Source: an uncultured Oligoflexia bacterium
GTDB taxonomy: Bacteria; Bdellovibrionota; Bacteriovoracia; Bacteriovoracales; Bacteriovoracaceae
Direction: 5' to 3'
Assembly (NCBI GenBank): GCA_913058265.1
Contig: CAJXPQ010000001.1
Location: 62,001 to 126,000, forward strand
DNA: 64,000 bases
The translations under genes were made by a program, and so were the position numbers. Shown piece after piece: positions 30,723 through 42,326 of the stretch (position 1 is the first letter of the stretch; each line of letters begins with the position of its first letter). The notes beneath the pieces were generated by a model. The model saw only the letters and a list, made by a program, of their open reading frames with translations. It was not told where the DNA came from and did not search any database.

Positions 30723-32273
30723 AGAAATTCATGTAAAAACGGATGGAATTCTACACAGTTTTCATCAGATTATTTACCTCATGATATATCTTTTTTTAAG
30801 AAAAGTATTTCGGGTATAATAACTCCTCACTCAAAAGATCAAGTTATTCAACTGGTGAAGATTGTTAGTGAAAGTACATTTTGTCTTTACCCTATTTCTC
30901 GTGGAAATAATTGGGGCTTTGGAGGGAAAACTCCTTTTAAAGATAATTGCATAGTTCTCGACCTATCAATGCTGAATCGGGTAAGTGAATACGAAGAAAG
31001 TTTTGGAACCATTCGAATTACACCTGGAGTCAGTCAAGGTGATCTATCAGAATACTTAAAAAATAAAAACAGTAAATTCTACTTAGATGTAACTGGTTCT
31101 GGAACTGAAACAAGTGTTTTAGGAAATACATTAGAGCGTGGTATTGCATATAATTCACTTCGAGTTGATTCCTTACAATCTCTTGAGGTACTTTTGCCTA
31201 ATGGTGTAGTGATCAATACAGGCTTCTCAGGTTATTTAAATTGCGATGTTAAAAACTTATATCAACATGGAATAGGACCTGAATTAAAGGGCTTATTCCT
31301 ACAATCTAATTTAGGTATTGTCTTATCAGCGACAATAAAATTAAAAAAGCGACAAGAAAAAGTCGTCTCTTTCAGAATAAGTATCGCTGAAACCAAAGTC
31401 GGCTCATTGATTGAAGTGATTTCTTCTTTACTAAGTGATGGAGTTATTGATTGCATCGCTCATATTGGCGATCCACTTAGAATCAGAAGTACCAAAGAAC
31501 CTATTTTACAAAACTCAAAAGATTTTTCTGACAATGATTTAAAGTTAGTTTTAAAAAAGTTGCAATTAATTGATTCAGAAAGTCCTATATGGTCTTGCCT
31601 AGGAAATATTCAAGGACCTAAAGGGCTTGTACGAGCAAAACAGAAAATCATAAAAAAGAGGATGAGTCATATAGGAAAAGTTCAGTTTTACGACGAAGAT
31701 ACAATATGTCTTGTAACAACATATTTAAACTGGGGGCCTTTCAAAAATACAATTAAATTTTTACGGGCCACTGAATCACTAAGAGGACTTATAAATGGCA
31801 ATGCGACTAGTGAAGCAGTAAAAATGCTTTTTTGGTCTCCCAAAAAGAAAAATATCGTACCCTACAAAGATAATGGAGATATCGATGTCGATAAATCCCC
31901 TAGCGGTTGTATTTTTTGTGTTCCGCTTACAACAATGAATAAAAAAGGAGCTGATAAGCTTATCAATCATTTTAGAAGTTTTAGTTCAAAACATGGCTTA
32001 TTAATGGGGGCAACACTTAACACTCTTAACGCCAATGTTTTAGAAGCAGTCATAAGTTTTCATTTTGATCCCAGCACCGAAGAGATACAAAATATTCACA
32101 AGCTTTTCATAGAATTTAACCAAGAGCTAATTCGTGATGGTTTATTTCCTTAAAGGATGAACCCAGAGCTTATGGCCCATTGCTCAGAAATATTACCACA
32201 TAGAGAGCTAAGCCTAGAGCATAAAAAAGCACTTGATCCAAGCTCGATTTTTTCACCAAATCACTATATTTAA
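30723..32273 (+). pseudogene. FAD-linked oxidase (VAO/PCMH type) with nonsense codon
   Basis: The FAD-binding half is clear: IITPHSKDQVIQLVKI, then SRGNNWGFGGKTP, a glycine-rich VTPGV-like ITPGVSQG, and VTGSGTETSVLGNTLERG for the pyrophosphate loop. The frame from 30723 holds no start codon before the conserved part. An ATG at 30731 is one base out of frame (ATG then an extra T). At 32151 an in-frame TAA replaces what is usually a tyrosine in GLFPxRMNPELM, and the conserved end continues to a second stop at 32271. It was probably a flavin oxidase of an alcohol or phenol; both ends look broken. Confidence 0.75.
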
Positions 32274-32604: not shown

Positions 32605-32638
32605 ATAACTAGAGACATCCCATTCCAGAACTACCCGA
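32605..32638 (+). repeat. Left copy of the mutM 5' region (candidate attL)
   Basis: ATAACTAGAGA followed by CCAGAACTACCCGA (32625-32638) matches the region around the real mutM start (ATAACCTAGAGA at 41507 and CCAGAACTACCCGA at 41526-41539). After this point the sequence diverges from mutM. The start codon position reads ATT here. Confidence 0.6.
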
Positions 32639-32759
32639 TGTGACGGGAGGCTATTTTCAAAACTCAAGAATATCTTTTACTTAGCTGTGTTTAAAGGCTT
32701 CTTCGTCATTTTTTGTTTTCATTCTATTTCATGAATATTAACTATTTTTAACGAAAAAG

Positions 32760-32777
32760 GTTGGCATGGTTGGCATT
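32760..32777 (+). repeat. GTTGGCAT direct repeats, left end of the element
   Basis: Two copies of GTTGGCAT lie next to each other (GTTGGCATGGTTGGCATT). The same octamer occurs three times at the right end, at 41421, 41454 and 41464. Spacing to the candidate attL is about 120 nt. They may be arm-type recombinase binding sites. Confidence 0.5.
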
Positions 32778-32812
32778 AGAGAGGCAAGCCACATTTTCCA
32801 TTAAATATCTTC

Positions 32813-34071
32813 CTAAAGAAATCTTGAAGGGATTTGTATTATATTTTCAGAAATCATTTCAATATTATTAGAGTTATTGATTAAAATACCTAAGGGTAAT
32901 TCGTGATTTTAAAAAAATTACTCAAACCAGTTAGCTGTTTTAACCTTGTAGAGCTACCGTACTTGATCTCTATTGGAAGAGTTCCAAATTCACCTTCTAT
33001 GATAAAATCCACTTCGCTCCCACTCTTTGTTCTGTAGTAGTAATAGTTAATTCCTACATGATCCGTTGCTTGAAAACCTCTAATAAGTTCTTCTATGATA
33101 AAGGACTCAAAATTTTGAACAACCAATGAAGAATTGTGTAGCTTTTCAAAATCAAATATTGCTTGTAGAGAATTACATAAACCTGAATCTCTAAAGATCC
33201 CTTTAGGCATTTTTATCAGTGACTTAACTTTAGAACTTTCATAGCTTGGAATATTTCTCCAAACCATCGTTCCGTCTGCGATATCAAGATAATTTTTAAC
33301 TGTTGATTCATTTACATCCAAAGATCTTCCAAACTGAGACCTATAAACTATAGTTCCAGAGTGCGCTGTTAACATGTTAATAAAGCGGCGAAACTTAACA
33401 CTATCTAATTTAGGGAAAAAAGAGCGAATATCTCTTTCAACATAGGTTTTAAAGTAGTTTTCCATCCATGTTTTGAAGTAATTCAAATCATCTGCTTTCT
33501 GTATTGGCTGGGGATAACCTCCAAACACCAAACCATTTAACATATCTTCTTGGCTTACCTCTGAGGTTAATTTTTTAAACTTACTTATAGTCAAGGTATT
33601 GATCTGGGATTCAAAGCACTTATAAAGTGAGGATAAGCTTTTATTTTTTAATTCAGTAATTTTAAAAGGTGATAGTTCAAATACAGCAACCCTACCGGCT
33701 AAACTTTCTGATACATTTTTTAGTAAATCTGGGGAGCTTAAAACCGTTAAGATAAATCTACCATTGGCCTCTCGATTATTATCGATAACTCCTCTTAGGG
33801 TACGAAACAAGTCACCTGAAAGCAGAGCCTCATCTATAATAATATGTTCTGGATTTTGGTTGAAAAAAAAGTTCAAATCATCGTGGATTTTGTCAAAAGT
33901 CTGGGGGTTTTCAAGGTCAATATACTTCCAATCAGGTCTCAGTCTTTTACTTAGAGAAGTTTTTCCACACTGTCTCGGACCAATTATCACGACACATGGG
34001 AAGGAGTCTAGTAACCTATTAATTTTATGTTCACAATGTCTTTTTAAGTAGTCCATATTCAGATAATACAT
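32813..34071 (-). pseudogene. DUF4143-type AAA ATPase, frameshifted near the C-terminus
   Basis: The Walker A motif GPRQCGKTS lies near residue 32 and IIIDEALLSG near 76. The DUF4143 half ends with a PD-(D/E)xK-like motif: SEVDFII and LPIEIKYGSS near 355-375. The frame stops at 32890 after FFKITNYP. If one base is restored there, the typical family ending (LGILINN and IIQIPSRFL) follows in the next frame to 32813. Family members occur in mobile or accessory DNA and their role is uncertain. The loss of the last 25 residues may or may not kill the protein. Confidence 0.78.
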
Positions 34072-34396
34072 ATGAATATGGACGGTCTAAAGACTAAAAA
34101 AACATCGTGCATCAGAGCGATCCAATGTAGCGAACGGATACAAGGTCAAGATCGAAGTAGATAACTCTGGTAAGACGTAAATACTTATATCTGTTTATTC
34201 CTGGCTAAAATTAAATGGAAGATGCCAAAATCTTTCAACTAATTTCAGGTCTGTTTTTTGAGTGTTATTAAAAAGAAAAGCCGGTCATTATTATTTGCCG
34301 GCTTTGATAATTTCTACTTTATTTTAGTGGTTAAAATCTAGAGGGATCATCGGTTTACGGAATATTTACCCGCTTATTGATTATAAAGCTTGTAAC
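34072..34396. other. Intergenic stretch with a hairpin at 34277-34305
   Basis: No gene is seen. The stem AAAGCCGG/CCGGCTTT (34277-34284 with 34298-34305) has a T-rich run on its minus-strand side, so it looks like a terminator for leftward transcription. No minus-strand gene lies immediately upstream, so it may be a leftover. Confidence 0.45.
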
Positions 34397-34424
34397 TAAA
34401 CTAAAATAGTAAAAATTCCGATGT
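34397..34424 (+). promoter_or_regulatory. Sigma-28 (FliA)-like promoter, leaderless type
   Basis: TAAACTAA, 12 nt, TCCGATGT. The -10 box keeps CCGAT of the GCCGATAA consensus. It ends 6 nt before the ATG at 34431. Weaker than the copies at 17553 and 43774. Confidence 0.4.
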
Positions 34425-34430
34425 GTGTGT

Positions 34431-36365
34431 ATGTTAAGAATAATCATGTTTTTTACTTATTTTTTATGTTTTTCAAGAACTAGTTACTCAAATGACTTAT
34501 TTAAAGAGCTAGATGCTCTCAATAACCTTTCAATTGGTAATGTCCAATATACGAATCAATGTATTCAAGAGAACGAAGAAAACGAAATTGAAAAAAATGA
34601 AGCCTTACTAAATAAGTGTGCTATAGACTTGTGTGGACCTCCAAAAAATAATCCAAGCTTTATTCTAACTGATACTAACTTTTCTAGCTACTTATCAAGT
34701 GAACATATAAAAAAGATTGATGATTTTGGTGCAAAAGTGAAACTAATTGCAGAGAACAATGCCAAAAAATTGGAGGAGATTCTTGATAAGTTGAACCAAA
34801 CAGAAAGGGAAGCCCCTGTAAAAATAGATATAGGAGATTGGGATCCATTAAATAGAATTAAAGCAGGATTTATTTTCGAAGAATTTGTAGATTACGATAT
34901 TGATATTAATAAAAACTGGGATGAAAGACTTCAAGTGAAGGTACGCTACCCAGAGGGGGCGAATGAAAAAATAAAACGTGGAATTCAGGCATTTGCTAAG
35001 GAAGAGAAAAAAAGGATAATGAATGATTTTTGGATGTCATTAGGTGAAGATCTCTTCTCTATGGAAGAGTTAAAAAAGACTTTAATAGAAAGATGGAACC
35101 AATTTAACCAAGATTATGAAAAGTTGGAATTAGACTTTTCAGATAAAGAGAACTTTCAAAACATGGATAATTTAAGAGCCATCATAAAAAAAGGAGTATT
35201 TGAGAGTGCAAATGAACTTGGTGTTGCTTTAGATGAGTTGGATACATTAGAAGGAGAAGTTTATCGGGCTAAATTTAATCGCCCTCGACTGGATTTACTT
35301 CCAGAACCATGTGAATCCAAAGAGTGTCGTGAGGGAGTTGGAGAATACATAGAGTTGATGAAACTTTCATCAATAACTCAAGAGCTTAAGTCACAGTACA
35401 AAAACACAAATAATTTTATTTCAAAGAATATTTCTAGATGTAAATCAGAAATGGCATTAAATCTGATTGAAAATGATCATCAAAACTTTATTCGTTCAGT
35501 AATACCCAGAATTAAAGAATCTTTAAGAAACAATTTATTAGCGAATTACAGTAGTGAATCAAAAAAAAACATTCTAGATTTTATTGAAAATCGATTAGGT
35601 TTTAATTTTACTCCAGTTCCAAATAAATCTGAAGATTTAGAAACAAGAATAGATAATGGATTAGCAATTTAAAAAAACAATAAACTAAAAATGAGTAAAA
35701 CTAATATTAGTAAAGTTATTGAGGCATTAATTAATCCTGAAGGTAATAAAGTAATTCCTGGAGTTATTAAAACAGGTTGTTCATACGGAATAACTGTATG
35801 GGACTCATTTGGAAGGAATATCTCTAAGAGTCAATTAGATAGAATATTAAATAATAGTAATCAAGAACAAGAACCTCAAAAAGATAAATATATTAATATA
35901 TCCTATTATAGTTGTACTCATCATGACCGTGGGGAGGGAATTTTTGCACATGAACTGGGGCATGCTTTATCTCACATAGTTGTAAATGGTGAATTAAGTA
36001 AGGAAAGCTTAAAAAAATATAAAAAACTTAGGAACTGCGCAACTACACAAAAAGGGAGTGACGAGGTCCCATTAATTGATGAAATAATGGGAGATAAATT
36101 ATATACAGAGGAAGATACTGCGGATCTAATCAGTTATATACTAACACCTAAAGATTTGATTTATTCCTGCTCTCTTTTATTACATTCAAATCTTGAAGAG
36201 TATTCAAATCTAAAAATTGAAAATCCCGATAAAAATGATAATCATTCAACAAGCTTATCTAGAGTTATTATGGAGGCAGTGAATAAAGGACTAGAGATTC
36301 CGCAATCGTGCAAAAAAGGAATTAAAAACTCTAATACAAAAATAAGGTTTGAAAAATGCATTTAA
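34431..36365 (+). pseudogene. Exported HExxH protein split by an in-frame TAA (34431-35672 and 35691-36365)
   Basis: Starting at the ATG at 34431, a signal peptide (FFTYFLCFSRTSYS) leads a long coiled, charged domain that ends at a TAA at 35670. The following ATG at 35691 is in the same frame (six codons between), and the next 224 residues carry the catalytic part: IFAHELGHALSH (HExxH), EEDTADLIS (ExxAD) 60-70 residues later, then NHSTSLSRVI and a cysteine tail. This matches the order in the protein at 14240-15451. A stop between the exported domain and the metallopeptidase domain leaves the catalytic part without a signal, hence pseudogene; two coupled genes are the alternative. Confidence 0.65.
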
Positions 36366-36751
36366 AACATGTCATCCTTATAATCCTATTGTATTCAGGC
36401 ACAACATCATCAAAAGAGATACATGTAAAATATGATTTAAAAAGCTATCAATTATCTTTAGATGCAAAAAAAATCTCAATCAAAACAAATCTATTGAATA
36501 TATCATTAGCCAGGAAAAAGTGTAACGAGATACTGTATGATAGATTTATTAGTAATTTGAAAACAAAATTAAGTACCTTAAATGATGGAATCTCAATAGA
36601 TTCAGGGCATGTACTGGTAAAATCAAATGGCAAAAAAAAATATATCCAGAAAGGAAACAAGTTAGAAGATTATTTTATAAGTATGCCTCGGGAATTCAAA
36701 AGAGTTAAGTTTGAAGATCACTTTTTATGTAAAAAAGATTCGAATTATTAA
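36356..36751 (+). CDS. Exported protein of unknown function, 131 aa
   Basis: The ATG at 36356 overlaps the end of the metallopeptidase frame by 10 nt in another frame, so the genes are coupled. A signal peptide (about 19 residues, ending GTTSSKE) precedes a basic beta-rich domain of 110 residues. No family is recognised. Its position suggests a partner or inhibitor of the HExxH protein, but only context supports that. Confidence 0.62.
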   Translation: MHLKHVILIILLYSGTTSSKEIHVKYDLKSYQLSLDAKKISIKTNLLNISLARKKCNEILYDRFISNLKTKLSTLNDGISIDSGHVLVKSNGKKKYIQKGNKLEDYFISMPREFKRVKFEDHFLCKKDSNY

Positions 36752-37236
36752 TATGGAAGTAGCACGACTTGCATTTACAAACCTAATGGTTTTTATTTAA
36801 CCGTTGGTTTCTAATTCCTAATTTTTAAGAACATTCATGAGCCTTGTGTGGAGCTTAAGTATCATGTGTCGTTTAAATCTTTATTGCACGGTGAAGAATA
36901 CTTAAATTGTAATCCATATAGTTTTGATTTCAGATGATTCGCTAGGTTTTAGATATCTAAATAAGAAAGTTGCAATGTGAAATTAGTTGAAAGAATCTGC
37001 CTTAATTGTTTATTGATGATGTACAAAACAATTAACTTACTGATTTAATATGATATATTCTTTTTTTCAAGATTTATGCTGTTTTTGAATGAGTAATTAA
37101 AACTGTCGCTGATTGGTAAAAGCAATTGCTCATGGACACTATTATCAGAATCGTACGTAGCCATTGAATTTTTAGGATAAAATGACTTATTCAGCATCAT
37201 ATTATCAATCAAATCTAAGAGGTAGATAGTCTTAGC
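36752..37236. other. Intergenic stretch of about 485 bases
   Basis: AT-rich, without a frame that looks coding. A small imperfect inverted repeat (AAACCTAATGGTTT region near 36779) is the only structure seen. It is probably decayed element DNA. Confidence 0.5.
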
Positions 37237-37712
37237 TCACCTAGAGTTAATAACTTTTATAAGTATCCTGTATCTACCATTACCAAACGTCCATGACTGG
37301 TCACCTGTATTTGGAAGAGGAGCTGGAGTATTCGGGTTTTGTTTTATAAATTCTTTGACACGATCGTGTTCATTTTCAAATTTTTCTAAGTCATCAAGAC
37401 TAGGTGTGCACTCAACAAGAAAGTATTATATTTACTAGTAGACCTCAAGGCACTTCTATGAGCTTTAATTGTACCAGATCTATGCCTTAAATCTACTTAA
37501 GCGATCTTCTGAAGTAGGAACGTCTTCAACTTCGCCATCAATTATATTAGACATTGAGAGAAGTCTTCTTTGAAGAGAGCCTAAATCAAATTTCATCTCC
37601 ACGTATTGATCTTCTTTGATTAGGATGTAGTTCCCTGATGATTCTGTCTGAATTCTGACAGGTTCAGTTGACGCTAATTCCAAGTATTCTTTTATATCTT
37701 TAATAAACCTTC
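37237..37712 (-). pseudogene. Decayed antitoxin-like and toxin-like pair
   Basis: From about 37712 to 37480 a frame reads like a Phd/YefM-type antitoxin (YLELASTEPVRIQ, then GNYILIKEDQY and LQRRLLSMSN), but its N-terminus is cut by a TGA and the only usable start is TTG at 37683. Downstream, overlapping frames encode RSGTIKAHRSALRSTSKY and then, after a frameshift at about 37425, FLVECTPSLDDLEKFENEH and DQSWTFGNGRYRILIKV. The second part would be the partner. The toxin family is not recognised; the pairing is inference. Confidence 0.45.
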
Positions 37713-37754
37713 CTCACACCAATACCAAAATTCTACTCTTGCTATATATAATCA

Positions 37755-38039
37755 CTAAGCTGCTTCTTCTAGTTTACTTTTTAACCTTTCTAACTTCTTG
37801 TAACCTTTTAATCCTTTAAGACCATTTGGAAATAAAAGCCTCTCGACACGTACACCATAAATAACTGAAAATCGTCCTGCCAGTTCAGCTCCAATATTAC
37901 GCTTATCATTCTCAAGAGCTGATAAGTTGGATACTGATACATCAACGGCCTTTGCAACCTCTTTTTGAGTTAAGCCAAACCTATTACGGAATGCTTTTAA
38001 AATTTTTCCTGTAGTTAATTTGCCTGTTTTAAAGTTCAT
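37755..38039 (-). CDS. XRE-family HTH transcriptional regulator, 94 aa
   Basis: A helix-turn-helix of the XRE type covers residues 11-65: GKILKAFRNRFGLTQKEVAKAVDVSVSNLSALENDKR with a canonical recognition helix. The C-terminus is lysine-rich and helical. It follows the RelE-like gene by 8 nt, in a three-gene cluster with the Phd-like antitoxin, so it is likely the autorepressor of that operon or a second antitoxin. Confidence 0.88.
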   Translation of the reverse strand: MNFKTGKLTTGKILKAFRNRFGLTQKEVAKAVDVSVSNLSALENDKRNIGAELAGRFSVIYGVRVERLLFPNGLKGLKGYKKLERLKSKLEEAA

Positions 38040-38047
38040 TGTTTCTC

Positions 38048-38395
38048 CTAGCTATAATCATGGTCAGAAGTTATTTTAATAACTTTAATGACTATTGCAT
38101 TTTTTATTACTGAGTAAATAAGACGGCCACCAGTTTGGTTTAGGGTTATTGAATGTTGCCCGTCTCTTTCATTTTTTAAGCTATGATCATTTAACATCTT
38201 AAAGAGTTCAGATTTTGTATAATCAGCATAACCTAGGTCTTCAATCTCTGTTATCCAGTACTCAATGAGATCCCTCACTTCAGAGTTAAATAGACCATTT
38301 TTCATGTCTTTATAAAACTTACTCTCAATATTCTTACTTATTAGGACTTTAGTTATCATCATTGGTAACTTATCATTTATGATAATATAATTCAA
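38048..38395 (-). CDS. RelE/ParE-like toxin candidate, 115 aa
   Basis: The C-terminus GRLIYSVIKNAIVIKVIKITSDHDYS has the RelE/ParE-fold ending pattern (RxxYxV...IxVxxVxxHDxY). The front half is helical (SEVRDLIEYWITEIEDLGYADYTKSELF). An ATG 12 codons in (MITKVL) is an alternative start. It sits between a Phd-like antitoxin gene (8 nt upstream) and an XRE gene (8 nt downstream). Assignment as the toxin rests on the C-terminal strand pattern and position. Confidence 0.6.
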   Translation of the reverse strand: MNYIIINDKLPMMITKVLISKNIESKFYKDMKNGLFNSEVRDLIEYWITEIEDLGYADYTKSELFKMLNDHSLKNERDGQHSITLNQTGGRLIYSVIKNAIVIKVIKITSDHDYS

Positions 38396-38403
38396 TTCTA
38401 ATC

Positions 38404-38715
38404 TTAGAGAATAGTGTCTTTTTCACTGTTTTTGACCTTCTCAATCAATTTATCTAGTTTTTTCATTTTGCTATCAAAGTCGGCCATAAGTTGGTCTGGA
38501 TTATAGTCAGCTCTCTTTACAGTTCCTTCAGCTTTTTCGAGACGAGACATAAGAGTAAAGAAATATTCTTGTGTCATCATTACTTTAACGTCCTGCCCTC
38601 TATGAAAAACTTGAAATACCTCACCATCTTGCATTTCAGAAATAGATGTTGGGTCACTTTTTAGTTCACTAAAATTTAATGTCTTTTTAAACATGATATC
38701 CTCCACGGTCAACAA
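38404..38715 (-). CDS. Phd/YefM-like antitoxin, 103 aa
   Basis: FSELKSDPTSISEMQDGEVFQVFHRGQDVKVMMTQEYFFTLMSRLE fits the N-terminal DNA-binding fold of Phd/YefM antitoxins (a strand-helix start, G..V.V...G..V.VM....Y..L). The charged helical tail (KKLDKLIEKVKN) would wrap the toxin. First gene of the cluster 38715-37755. The ATG at 38691 (MFKKTL) is an alternative start. About 290 bases of AT-rich promoter DNA lie upstream. Confidence 0.75.
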   Translation of the reverse strand: MLTVEDIMFKKTLNFSELKSDPTSISEMQDGEVFQVFHRGQDVKVMMTQEYFFTLMSRLEKAEGTVKRADYNPDQLMADFDSKMKKLDKLIEKVKNSEKDTIL

Positions 38716-39007
38716 AAGACCATTAATGATCTATTATATATCCATTAATCCTCATATTCAATGAAACTTTGCGTATTACATAGTATTTAAGATACTGATA
38801 TTACGTAAAATTAAAAAGTAAATAAAAATACTCTTGCCAAATATCCTCCATTTTTGGTTTGGAGTAGTTCAAATTCAAAAAAGAACACATGAGTTAGCTT
38901 AAATCTGTAGGGGCCCAATATACTGAGGCGACCTTGAAGATAACTGAAAATAGTACAACTCACCTTCTTTCTAAAAATTGTTAACTCAAACTTTTAGGAG
39001 GAAAATC

Positions 39008-39730
39008 ATGGGTATCTTCATACCAATTGATTATTACGCACAAATTTTAAATGAAGTCGGTCGCTTCAAAATTATCACCATGAGAAATCTCTACGGGACT
39101 TTAAATGTAGAACTCTCATACTCACTCTTTTGCAGAAAGGTTAAAAAGCTAGAATACGAAGGTCTCATTAGATCTATAACTGGAATGCGTAAATCTAAGA
39201 TTTTAACTTTAACCAACAAAGGCTCTCAGTACAGTAAATTCGGCGCTCAATACTCTGACAGTGACAAAGAGCTCAATCATGACTTAATTGCCTCTAACGT
39301 GATCTTGGAGCTTAATAAGCTACCTACATTCGAAGCAGGAAGTGTAATTCATTCAGCGGATCAGACTGGAATCGAATCTGATGGCCTAATTTTTTTCAGC
39401 AAAGGTGATAAGAAAGGCACGCTTGGAATTGAAGTTGAACTTACTCAAAAGTCTAAGATTAGAATTGTAAAAAAGTTTTGTGATTACACAGATTCCAAAG
39501 AGATTTCTTATTCCCTATTCATTTTTAACAAAGAAAGCGTTTTTAGGGCCTATAAGAATCAACTCGATTCAATGGTTAATGAAGTCTCTGATTCAAATTT
39601 ACTACTTTTGGATGAAGGGCTTTCATCGAATTCATTTTCATTTTTTGATAAGGAAGTTTACTTCAGGCGTAAGTACACAAACTTCAAAGATATTTTTGGA
39701 ATTGAGCATTTTAGCGGTTCACATACGTGA
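39008..39730 (+). CDS. Replication-relaxation-family winged-helix protein, 240 aa
   Basis: The strong ribosome site TAGGAGGAAAATC makes the ATG at 39008 the start. Residues 5-65 form a winged helix (LNEVGRFKIITMRNLYG, then YSLFCRKVKKLEYEGLIRSI). A conserved LNHDL and a later EVELTQKSKIRIVKKFCDYT fit the replication-relaxation (PF13814) family, whose members are found on conjugative plasmids and mobile elements near relaxases. No relaxase is present here. It would act on element DNA processing or its regulation. Confidence 0.72.
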   Translation: MGIFIPIDYYAQILNEVGRFKIITMRNLYGTLNVELSYSLFCRKVKKLEYEGLIRSITGMRKSKILTLTNKGSQYSKFGAQYSDSDKELNHDLIASNVILELNKLPTFEAGSVIHSADQTGIESDGLIFFSKGDKKGTLGIEVELTQKSKIRIVKKFCDYTDSKEISYSLFIFNKESVFRAYKNQLDSMVNEVSDSNLLLLDEGLSSNSFSFFDKEVYFRRKYTNFKDIFGIEHFSGSHT

Positions 39731-39806
39731 CACTAAAGCTTCAATTGAGTTCACAGTCTCCTTCGCCATACCTAAAATCCTTAATCATTTAAGTGATTTG
39801 TCTGAT

Positions 39807-39863
39807 GTGATTCCTGACTCACCCTCTCTCACGAAATAGAGAGAGAGTGAGTCAGGAAGTCAC
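39807..39863. repeat. Long hairpin, about 24-bp stem
   Basis: The left arm (39807-39830) and right arm (39839-39863) pair over about 24 positions with one bulge and one mismatch; the loop is ACGAAATA. The stem includes TTCCTGACTCAC and CTCTCTC. There is no T run on either side, so this is not an ordinary terminator. It lies between the replication-relaxation gene and the excisionase-like gene. Confidence 0.85.
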
Positions 39864-39935
39864 GACAAATAAAAATGAGAAAGGAAAGATAAGGCGAAGG
39901 AGAAAATAAAAAGAGAAAAGACAAGGAATTAAAAG

Positions 39936-40184
39936 ATGTTAGGAAATACAAAAAATGATTACAAGAAAGCGGGTACAAGTTATAATGGAAATACGTTAGG
40001 CAATATAACGAATAGGCTCTTTGAAAAGTTAATATGGGGAATAGATGATGTATGTAGGGTTACTACGTACAAGAAAGGAACAATTTACAACTTAGTTAGT
40101 TGTGGAGAAATTCCGTATAGAAAACGACGAGGAAAGCTCTTTTTCATACCAAGTGAAATTTTATCTTGGGTTCAAAATGATTAA
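39936..40184 (+). CDS. Excisionase-like helix-turn-helix protein, 82 aa
   Basis: The C-terminal 50 residues form a MerR/Xis-like domain (HTH_17 type): WGIDDVCRVTTYKKGTIYNLVSCGEIPYRKRRGKLFFIPSEILSWVQ. The first 30 residues are low in order. It ends 10 nt before the integrase ATG, with the integrase ribosome site (AAGGAG) directly at its stop. Such proteins steer the integrase toward excision. Confidence 0.85.
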   Translation: MLGNTKNDYKKAGTSYNGNTLGNITNRLFEKLIWGIDDVCRVTTYKKGTIYNLVSCGEIPYRKRRGKLFFIPSEILSWVQND

Positions 40185-40194
40185 GGAGAACCTC

Positions 40195-41439
40195 ATGAGT
40201 AAAAAAGATTACAGAAAACTTTCTGGTCAGACTGGTATCTACAAACACCAAACTACTAAAAATTATTTAGCTATGAAGAAAGTTGATGGAAAGATCCACC
40301 AAAAAACTTTTAGCTCTCTCTTCGAAGCAAAAAAGTGGCGTCAGTCTTTTGATGGAGTTGAACTAGAAGTTAGAACTTCTAACTGCTCTACCTTAAAAGA
40401 TGTATGGGAGACTATGCAAAGAGTTCACTTTCCAACGCTAGCGACTACCACTAAGGCCATCTGGCTTAGAAGGTATGAACCGTGGAAAAAACTTGAAGGG
40501 CTGCCCATGGATGAAATTACTCCCTCAAGAGTAACCAAGTTCGTGCAAAACTTAATTGAGTTCTACAAGTCAGATTATTATACTAGTTCCGGTAGAGGCA
40601 GGGCCTCAAGGTGCAATTTAAACAATGAGCTTAATTTATTTGTTACAATCTTCAATTGGTATAAAGAAAGCGAGGAATTTGAGAAAGAAGCTCTTAGCCT
40701 TACAAATCCCATCAAGAAGAAACATAAAAAAATGGGCTTTATCAAACCTGTACCAGACAAAAGAAAGAAAATCACACTTGAGCATGCTCTAGATTTCTTT
40801 AACTACCTAAGACCTTTGTATAGGAACTTAGCAAAAATGCAGTTCTTTACAGCAGGTCGTGTTGGAGAGATCTCAGGACTTCAATGGTCCAATATTGATA
40901 TGGATAATAAAAGGCTTCTAATAAAACATTCTTGCATTTGGGATATGACTCATAAGACATTTATTGAGTTAAAGCCCTTTCCTAAGAATAAAGAACCTAG
41001 AGCTGTTTATATTACTAATGAGATCATGGAAATTTTAACTGAGCGTATGGCGTTTAAGAAGCCTATGTGTGATTACGTATTTCATGTGGAAGGAAAACCA
41101 CTCAATTATGGAACTATCCAGCTTAATTACAGAGAGGCACAGAGAAAAGGTAAGCTCCCCTACTCAGGCACTCATATATTAAGACATGGAATGGCCACAC
41201 TGGCCCGTAAAGTCGGAGGTGGACTTGATGCGGTTATAGCAATGACGGGACATAAAGACCTAAAGCTTGCTGACCATTATTCAAAGTGCGATGAAGAGGA
41301 TCAAAAAGAAGTGTCTTTAAAGATTATGGAGTACATCAAAAAACAAAGTGAGTTTGAAAAAATAGAATTAGAAAAAGTTGATCAAAAACATGAGAATGTG
41401 ATCTCAATATTTTCTAAAAAGTTGGCATCAAATCACTAA
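40195..41439 (+). CDS. Tyrosine recombinase/integrase, 414 aa
   Basis: The start is the ATG at 40195 behind AAGGAGAACC; the longer frame from 40102 overlaps the excisionase gene and is not needed. An N-terminal arm-binding region (GIYKHQTTKNYLAM) and a SAM-like core-binding domain precede the catalytic domain. Catalytic residues: R in FTAGRVGEISGLQW, HxxR in HILRHGMATLA, H in AMTGHKD and the nucleophile Y in ADHYSK. It is the recombinase of the element and lies 83 nt from the mutM start, where its target appears to be. Confidence 0.93.
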   Translation: MSKKDYRKLSGQTGIYKHQTTKNYLAMKKVDGKIHQKTFSSLFEAKKWRQSFDGVELEVRTSNCSTLKDVWETMQRVHFPTLATTTKAIWLRRYEPWKKLEGLPMDEITPSRVTKFVQNLIEFYKSDYYTSSGRGRASRCNLNNELNLFVTIFNWYKESEEFEKEALSLTNPIKKKHKKMGFIKPVPDKRKKITLEHALDFFNYLRPLYRNLAKMQFFTAGRVGEISGLQWSNIDMDNKRLLIKHSCIWDMTHKTFIELKPFPKNKEPRAVYITNEIMEILTERMAFKKPMCDYVFHVEGKPLNYGTIQLNYREAQRKGKLPYSGTHILRHGMATLARKVGGGLDAVIAMTGHKDLKLADHYSKCDEEDQKEVSLKIMEYIKKQSEFEKIELEKVDQKHENVISIFSKKLASNH

Positions 41440-41472
41440 AAAGTTAGTATAAAGTTGGCATGGGTTGGCATT
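41421..41472 (+). repeat. GTTGGCAT direct repeats, right end of the element
   Basis: GTTGGCAT occurs at 41421, 41454 and 41464, the last two as GTTGGCATGGGTTGGCATT. They match the repeats at 32760-32777 in the same orientation, just inside the mutM core copy. Confidence 0.5.
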
Positions 41473-41506
41473 GGCCAATCCATGTTTCTAAAAATTAATA
41501 ATTTTA

Positions 41507-41539
41507 ATAACCTAGAGAAGATATGCCAGAACTACCCGA
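41507..41539 (+). repeat. mutM 5' region, right core copy (candidate attR)
   Basis: ATAACCTAGAGA plus CCAGAACTACCCGA spanning the mutM ribosome site and first codons. It is duplicated at 32605-32638. Confidence 0.55.
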
Positions 41540-42326
41540 AGTAAAAACCATTCAAGATCAACTAAATAAGGTTATGCCTTTTAAAATTACTTCATCAGCA
41601 ATGAGTAATGTGGCCGGATCAATCATCCATACGAAAATGGATAAGCTAAAAGGTAAGGTTATACTTGCAGTTAATCGTAAAGGTAAGATGCTCGACTTCT
41701 TACTTGATGATGGAAGACATATACTCTCTCATCTCGGCATGACTGGAACTTGGCTAATTTCTAAGGATAAAATCACAGAAAAACATACTCACTTACAGTT
41801 TAAATCTGATACAGGATATTTGGCCTACGTGGATCCAAGACGCTTTGGTCATATGTATCTCTACAATGAAGATCAATCACAAAAAAAATTAGCAGAGCTC
41901 GGGATTGATTTATTAGATAAGGATTTTACACTTGAGTACTTTAAAACCTCACTCCTAAGGTACCCTAATAGACATTTGAAGGTCACACTCCTCGATCAAA
42001 GTCTTTTTGCAGGGACTGGTAATTATATTGCCAGCGAAATCTGTGCACACGGTGGTGTAAGGCCTGAACGCTTGATTAAAGATCTTAAAAAGTCTGAATT
42101 TAAAAAGTTATATGATGGTGTCTTCAAAGTCATTAACCCAACTGTCGCCTCTGGTGGTGCGGCCTTTGCAGGAGGCTATAGGGATGCCACAGGTGAGAAA
42201 GGAGATGGTGTCCAGCATCTGGTTGTCTTCTATCAAAAAGAATGTCAGCTCTGTAATAAAACGAAAGTTGTAAAAATTGTATTAGGACAACGTGGTACTT
42301 ACTATTGCCCCAGGTGCCAAAAGTAG
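41523..42326 (+). CDS. mutM: Formamidopyrimidine-DNA glycosylase (MutM/Fpg)
   Basis: MPELPEVKT is the invariant N-terminus; Pro2 is the catalytic nucleophile and Glu3 assists. NRKGKM carries the conserved lysine of the intercalation region, HLGMTG and DPRRFG follow, and the helix-two-turn-helix region (LFAGTGNYIASEI) is complete. The zinc finger at the end has four cysteines (CQLC and YYCPRC). It removes oxidised purines such as 8-oxoguanine. Its 5' end appears to be the attachment site of the element on its left, yet the gene itself is intact. Confidence 0.97.
   Translation: MPELPEVKTIQDQLNKVMPFKITSSAMSNVAGSIIHTKMDKLKGKVILAVNRKGKMLDFLLDDGRHILSHLGMTGTWLISKDKITEKHTHLQFKSDTGYLAYVDPRRFGHMYLYNEDQSQKKLAELGIDLLDKDFTLEYFKTSLLRYPNRHLKVTLLDQSLFAGTGNYIASEICAHGGVRPERLIKDLKKSEFKKLYDGVFKVINPTVASGGAAFAGGYRDATGEKGDGVQHLVVFYQKECQLCNKTKVVKIVLGQRGTYYCPRCQK

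Follow-up and report, generated by a model that had tools for sequence, protein, structure and literature searches.

The islands closest to the one described here lie at the 5′ end of dusA, where they are inserted by dusA-specific integrases (Farrugia et al. 2015, PMC4482086; IMEVchUSA3, PMC8409611). In the 64,000-nt stretch of DNA from an uncultured Oligoflexia bacterium of predatory type (Bacteriovoracaceae) that we analysed (the window, part of a 3.23-Mb genome with marine Halobacteriovoraceae metagenome-assembled genomes among its congeners), positions 32625–41539, ending in the DNA-repair gene mutM (Fpg), are very probably an integrative element whose tyrosine integrase recombines an attP core with mutM codons 2–6. 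Like the dusA islands, elements of this type carry an integrase specialised for the 5′ end of a single conserved housekeeping gene, supply a new promoter and 5′ coding end with the frame kept, and share no universal gene except the integrase, their cargo being varied. They differ from the dusA islands in that the target is mutM codons 2–6 and that only the leader and start codon change while the N-terminus does not, and also in their ATG to ATT/ATC starts, their tandem arrays with many integrase-less units and their Bdellovibrionota hosts.

Other known systems share single features with the mutM element. SpyCI, at the 5′ end of mutL, is likewise mobile and sits where a DNA-repair gene begins, so that it could in principle alter the mutation rate, but it severs mutL from its operon promoter as a growth-phase switch (PMC3430984, PMC4129442), whereas the mutM element restores a complete gene start. 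The SXT/R391 integrative and conjugative element at the 5′ end of prfC is large and conjugative, in contrast to the window's 8.9 kb, in which no conjugation gene was recognised. Integron cassette arrays and island accretion at tRNA sites also add units at one site and push them outward, each with an att copy and many without a recombinase; at mutM, by contrast, arrays grow at the start of a chromosomal gene, and some of the units themselves encode the recombinase. By comparison with these systems the mechanism is already known. We found no relevant paper on mutM as an attachment site in the literature searched (subscription papers and island databases lay outside that search), and as far as this literature shows, what is new is the target gene, the exchange of starts involving rare codons, and the habit of forming arrays.

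The element and its attachment core

Two identical copies of a 14-bp core, CCAGAACTACCCGA, bound the element (8,901 bp core to core; coordinates in Table 1), the right copy forming mutM codons 2–6. Allowing up to one mismatch, the core occurs at these two places only in the whole genome, compared with one place for a reversed control pattern, and a search for a further core inside the 8.9-kb interval found none. The original prediction, made from the letters of the window, had proposed such a pair of repeats, and both copies proved real. It had also noted a repeated string preceding each core. The strings are indeed present at both ends, as ATAACTAGAGA on the left and ATAACCTAGAGA on the right, but are shifted against the core by about 2 nt; because other elements too have TTAGAGA/GGTTAG-like strings before the core, these seem to belong to a core-flanking binding site rather than to a copied mutM leader.

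The decisive evidence for integration into the mutM core comes from a comparison between classes. The integrase end in G152 (Bdellovibrionia) is approximately 99% identical to that in G062 (Bacteriovoracia) over 1.2 kb, through the leader, the ATG and the core, and this identity collapses after mutM codon 6–7, that is, it stops inside the core. The two compared MutM sequences diverge directly after their shared N-terminus, and the MutM on the Bdellovibrionia side (locus L196) shares only 33% identity with the window's. A near-identical element end with unlike mutM genes behind it therefore indicates that one element entered two different mutM genes with the crossover in the core, and we regard this as the strongest of the tests.

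Conservation of the termini and the repeats within them agree with these boundaries. Three genomes belonging to two other genera, G079, G059 and G064, share the termini of the window element: likeness on the left sets in right after CCCGA and on the right extends up to ATGCC. Just inside both ends lie pairs of GTTGGCAT (period 9 on the left, period 10 on the right, with an extra copy at 41421), and these end repeats account for five of its six occurrences in the 64 kb; tested against shuffles and present in relatives too, they are putative integrase arm sites. At the right end they stand 50–70 bp before the mutM start codon and could, speculatively, overlap the mutM promoter. A promoter scan did no better than shuffles, and a terminator scan between integrase and mutM found none, though an inverted repeat is visible there. 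Insertion within the first codons of mutM, with an element-borne replacement 5′ end and mutM left intact, had been the central claim of the original prediction; it is supported by the integrase position, the matching terminal repeats, the termini conserved in other genera, the displaced earlier ends described below and the cross-class identity, and mutM itself is complete. That prediction had seen the left copy; the ATT-to-ATG start change and the lineage-wide system are additions to it.

On this model the integrase would bind the core and terminal repeats and recombine attP with the near-identical mutM codons 2–6, which encode the Pro-Glu-Leu-Pro-Glu of the catalytic N-terminus. The right end of the element takes the place of all that precedes codon 2, namely the leader, the ribosome site and the start codon; because the crossover falls within codons 2–6 the frame is kept, only the expression signals of mutM changing and its product staying the same. 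The old 5′ end remains at the left junction, which in the window carries ATT where mutM carries ATG, and excision, probably directed by the small helix-turn-helix (HTH) protein as excisionase, would restore an ATT-start mutM. The expected circular junction would read, from the right end, GAGAAGATATG-CCAGAACTACCCGA-TGTGACGGGAGG, and the expected restored site GACATCCCATT-CCAGAACTACCCGA-AGTAAAAACC. The sequence comparisons show the borders of the element, the specificity of its integrase, recurrent use of the site with tandem arrays, spread across genera and classes, and carriage of the start codon by the element. We infer that the window copy could excise and transfer, and that the AUU-to-AUG swap might change the MutM level or the mutation rate.

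Integrase, core and arrays across the lineage

We extracted 95 mutM loci of the same family with their upstream DNA, the comparison genomes being mostly metagenome-assembled. The same integrase family ends less than 300 bp upstream of mutM in 44 of them. In a scan of named genomes (Bacteriovoracaceae, Bdellovibrionales), a degenerate core, CCNGARYTNCCNGA, followed the integrase at 81–260 nt in 46 of 49 loci, which identifies the target as mutM and not dusA; in 36 of these the core continues as full-length mutM and in 10 as a displaced stub, while two of the three integrase loci without a core are contig ends. For Bdellovibrionia, the integrase adjoins mutM in six of seven integrase-bearing genomes, two of these being decayed. 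Since the core encodes the nearly invariant PELPE (93 of 95 MutM), any mutM-bearing host would offer the site with its gene product unchanged.

Among 17 loci of one Bdellovibrionia genus the integrase is present in G154 alone, and nearly all congeners become homologous to G154 only from the mutM start codon onward. In two IMG/VR contigs the integrase and core are followed by DNA of the contig itself instead of mutM; one of these, 35.5 kb long with an amidase endolysin and an HNH gene, thus displays an unintegrated attP and is a probable phage, although one Pfam model searched found no terminase in it and the record may be a fragment. The free form was seen in this related contig only; the circular junction foreseen by the original prediction did not turn up for the window's own element. 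Separately, the MutM proteins of two Bdellovibrionia genomes, G161 and G163 (loci L209 and L210), are 55% and 44% identical to the window's, compared with approximately 32–35% in most others of the class, and transfer of mutM itself is possible in these cases.

Upstream of mutM, the degenerate core was found 47 times in sense and twice in antisense orientation (0.91 Mb), and these displaced cores form tandem arrays. Fifteen att-bounded intervals, of 4.7–13.6 kb, end in an integrase, whereas 31 of 47 lack one (54 bp to 9 kb); several of the latter keep terminal repeats, and they may be decayed units or units moved in trans. The right ends that abut mutM in some genomes were found displaced upstream in others, with homology reaching the core: the end at −9610 in G051 matches the mutM-adjacent end of G053 and G052 (94%), that at −2143 in G109 matches G108 (89%), that at −4163 in G018 matches G140 (84%), and that at −10488 in G064 matches G058 (88% over 234 bp). 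The pairs G051/G053, G109/G108, G018/G140 and G064/G058 thus represent equivalent displaced or pre-insertion ends. On contig JABFRR010000005.1 (loci L170, L185, L188), three integrase copies lie on 199 kb, of which one adjoins mutM and the other two precede displaced cores; this appears to be a large array at one mutM. Cargo was mixed among 97 proteins, including regulators, HigB-like toxins, metabolism and some defence-like genes, and the hypothesis of a defence-only cargo was dropped on this count.

Leaders and start codons of mutM

The mutM start codon, assigned from frame and conservation, is ATG in most of the 95 genomes and non-standard in 17, where it is ATT (12), ATC (4) or GTT (1). 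In 14 of these 17, no standard in-frame start lies between the nearest upstream stop and the ATT, ATC or GTT codon (exceptions G018, G071 and G101). The catalytic Pro of MutM must be N-terminal, so an upstream start would bury it. For the ATT-start pair G071 and G072, nonsynonymous divergence (dN) is 0.05 and synonymous divergence (dS) 1.9, the latter near saturation, and G071 has an alternative ATG four codons upstream; given this low dN relative to dS, ATT-start mutM genes look functional and under purifying selection.

Start class changed four times on the integrase tree, where 4 of 500 shuffles gave so few changes, and six times on the mutM tree, where 184 of 500 did, both being quick trees of 35 rows with 7 non-NTG cases, some of them related. 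Start class therefore tracks the integrase tree and not the mutM tree, which argues that the start codon travels with the element. Changes were found in both directions, from ATT or ATA to ATG (G000, G040, G132, G060) and from ATG to ATT or ATC (G041, G045, G010, G018, G118). By these comparisons the element is the source of the mutM leader and start codon, supplying a replacement 5′ end with the frame kept, as gene-restoring 5′-end islands of the dusA and prfC type do. In one genome, G058, a 234-bp leader with nested inverted repeats lies directly before the mutM ATG and again at −5656, and occurs once in G064 at −10488; no Rfam match marks it as a structured RNA.

Codon usage within the core is also unusual. 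Leu4 is CTA in 73% of mutM genes compared with 10% of the Leu codons elsewhere in them, and Pro5 is CCC in 86% compared with 22% elsewhere in mutM; no other column among the 34 conserved four- or sixfold ones is as biased as these two, whereas Pro2 varies freely at its third base. In Bdellovibrionia, where the element is rarer, the values are 14% for CTA and 50% for CCC. The bias fits repeated reintroduction of the att sequence, though other causes of gene-start bias are possible.

Additional copies of mutM sequence were observed in three genomes. In G013 (locus L039), a second copy of the last 43 mutM codons lies approximately 3.5 kb downstream of mutM (G013:C1:659168-659296), 65% identical to the window's and with a large open reading frame between it and mutM, and may reflect a different kind of element using the mutM 3′ end. 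G108 (L149) and G125 (L148) each have a second, divergent mutM-like gene, 32–36% identical to the window's MutM and located 5 kb and 47 kb, respectively, upstream of the native mutM; the start of the G108 copy matches the core.

Genes of the element and alternative readings

The features of the element are collected in Table 1. Family matches agree with the predicted integrase and excisionase-like gene at the right end; the integrase, which ends 84 bp before mutM, is intact, and its catalytic R222, H327, R330, H353 and Y362 are invariant in eight relatives. A gene that had been called replication-relaxation has no family match, its 250-aa product being only winged-helix-looking. As for a proposed toxin–antitoxin cluster, the HTH antitoxin is clear but its partner genes match nothing. 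No capsid, terminase or tail genes that would point to a prophage were found among the scanned element proteins.

Table 1. Coordinates (window positions) of the mutM element, its ends and its genes
Feature	Position	Strand	Remarks
Displaced ATT start codon of previous mutM 5′ end	32622..32624	+	TAG stop in frame at 32610; no further start codon intervenes
attL core CCAGAACTACCCGA	32625..32638	+	Element-specific sequence starts directly after; conserved with G079, G059, G064
Left terminus conserved in elements of other genera	32639..32776	+	
Left arm-type direct repeat GGTTGGCAT, two copies, period 9	32759..32776	+	
AAA_14-DUF4143 ATPase, cargo; PADLOC candidate defence gene PDC-S01	32890..34071	-	Pfam 3e-34; PADLOC 2.7e-81
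Cargo protein of 415 aa, apparent signal peptide, no clear family	34425..35672	+	
Cargo protein of 224 aa with HELGH zinc-peptidase-like motif	35691..36365	+	Only weak M6 peptidase match, 0.03
Cargo protein of 131 aa, no credible family	36356..36751	+	
HTH_3 antitoxin-like regulator, cargo	37755..38039	-	Relatives 89–94% identical in mutM loci of G005, G012, G021
HTH-gene partner, cargo, possible toxin, no family	38048..38395	-	
Small cargo protein, possible antitoxin, no credible family	38404..38715	-	
Backbone winged-helix-like protein, 250 aa	38978..39730	+	About 2.5–3.3 kb upstream of mutM in 8 other loci
Backbone excisionase-like HTH protein, 82 aa	39936..40184	+	PHROG 2790 'excisionase' 3e-3; NCBIfam 'excise' 5e-3
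Backbone tyrosine integrase	40195..41439	+	Pfam Phage_integrase PF00589 2.3e-16; PHROG 1 6.8e-42
Right arm-type repeats GTTGGCAT	41421..41471	+	At 41421, 41454, 41464 (last two period 10)
mutM leader with ribosome site and ATG start, supplied by the element	41472..41525	+	Nearly the same sequence precedes mutM in G079, of another genus
mutM (Fpg), intact target gene	41523..42326	+	
attR core inside mutM, codons Pro2–Glu6	41526..41539	+	

Several points weigh against the reading as an integrative element. We found no pair of strains with and without the window element. The DNA to its left is accessory too, as this sequence, including a gene for an FAD-binding oxidase (30855–32153), is absent from congeners G001 and G002; the left border therefore rests on the core copy and the conservation of the terminus. 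Some loci also hold decayed integrase copies, which makes fossils of a part of the elements. The window copy could be one as well, truly integrated but no longer excising, with mutM simply holding a new leader: decay is common at the mutM site, given the 31 of 47 intervals without an integrase and the stops in the integrases of G202 and G151. We consider this unlikely, though it deserves some weight, because in the window the integrase has all its catalytic residues, the excisionase-like gene is open, the two cores match exactly and neither arm repeat is missing. It is much harder to credit that the 8.9 kb comprises more than one unit, its left core deriving from an older and different element. 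Tandem arrays are common at this site, yet here the same GTTGGCAT repeats occur at both ends with no core between, and G079, G059 and G064 share the pair of ends along with the integrase clade. Chance or ordinary duplication, without site-specific recombination, would be easiest to imagine from the shortness of the shared exact stretch (14 bp), but its probability is next to nil: only two copies exist genome-wide, the strand bias is 47 to 2, integrase and mutM adjoin in two classes, and the cross-class identity ending in the core refutes it in practice.

Whether the start exchange matters to the host divides our judgement evenly, as it may be neutral, with equal MutM output under AUG, UUG, AUU or AUC leaders and mutM merely a landing site that is safe and conserved. 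In E. coli, initiation at AUU and AUC is much weaker, infC and pcnB being the standard natural cases, and output could therefore be equal only if something else compensated. On the side of neutrality, ATT-start mutM genes remain intact and under apparent purifying selection (G071 and G072, above), and dusA islands keep their gene expressed, at a lower level (PMC8409611). Returning to integration at codons 2–6 of mutM, we put forward only tentatively, as a rather doubtful proposal, that the islands act as exchangeable mutM translation-start cassettes (AUG, UUG or AUU/AUC with a leader) that would set the MutM level and hence the host's G:C to T:A oxidative mutation rate, in a way that would be heritable, reversible by excision and mobile between species.

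These results identify a DNA-repair gene as the dedicated landing site of a widespread family of islands and phage in predatory-type bacteria. The mobile element replaces the start codon of a host gene, in some cases by rare AUU and AUC starts that gene finders would miss. Because they target a short, widely conserved coding sequence, these integrases could serve as an integration tool, and the mutM loci offer a natural system for asking whether mobile DNA tunes the mutation rate.

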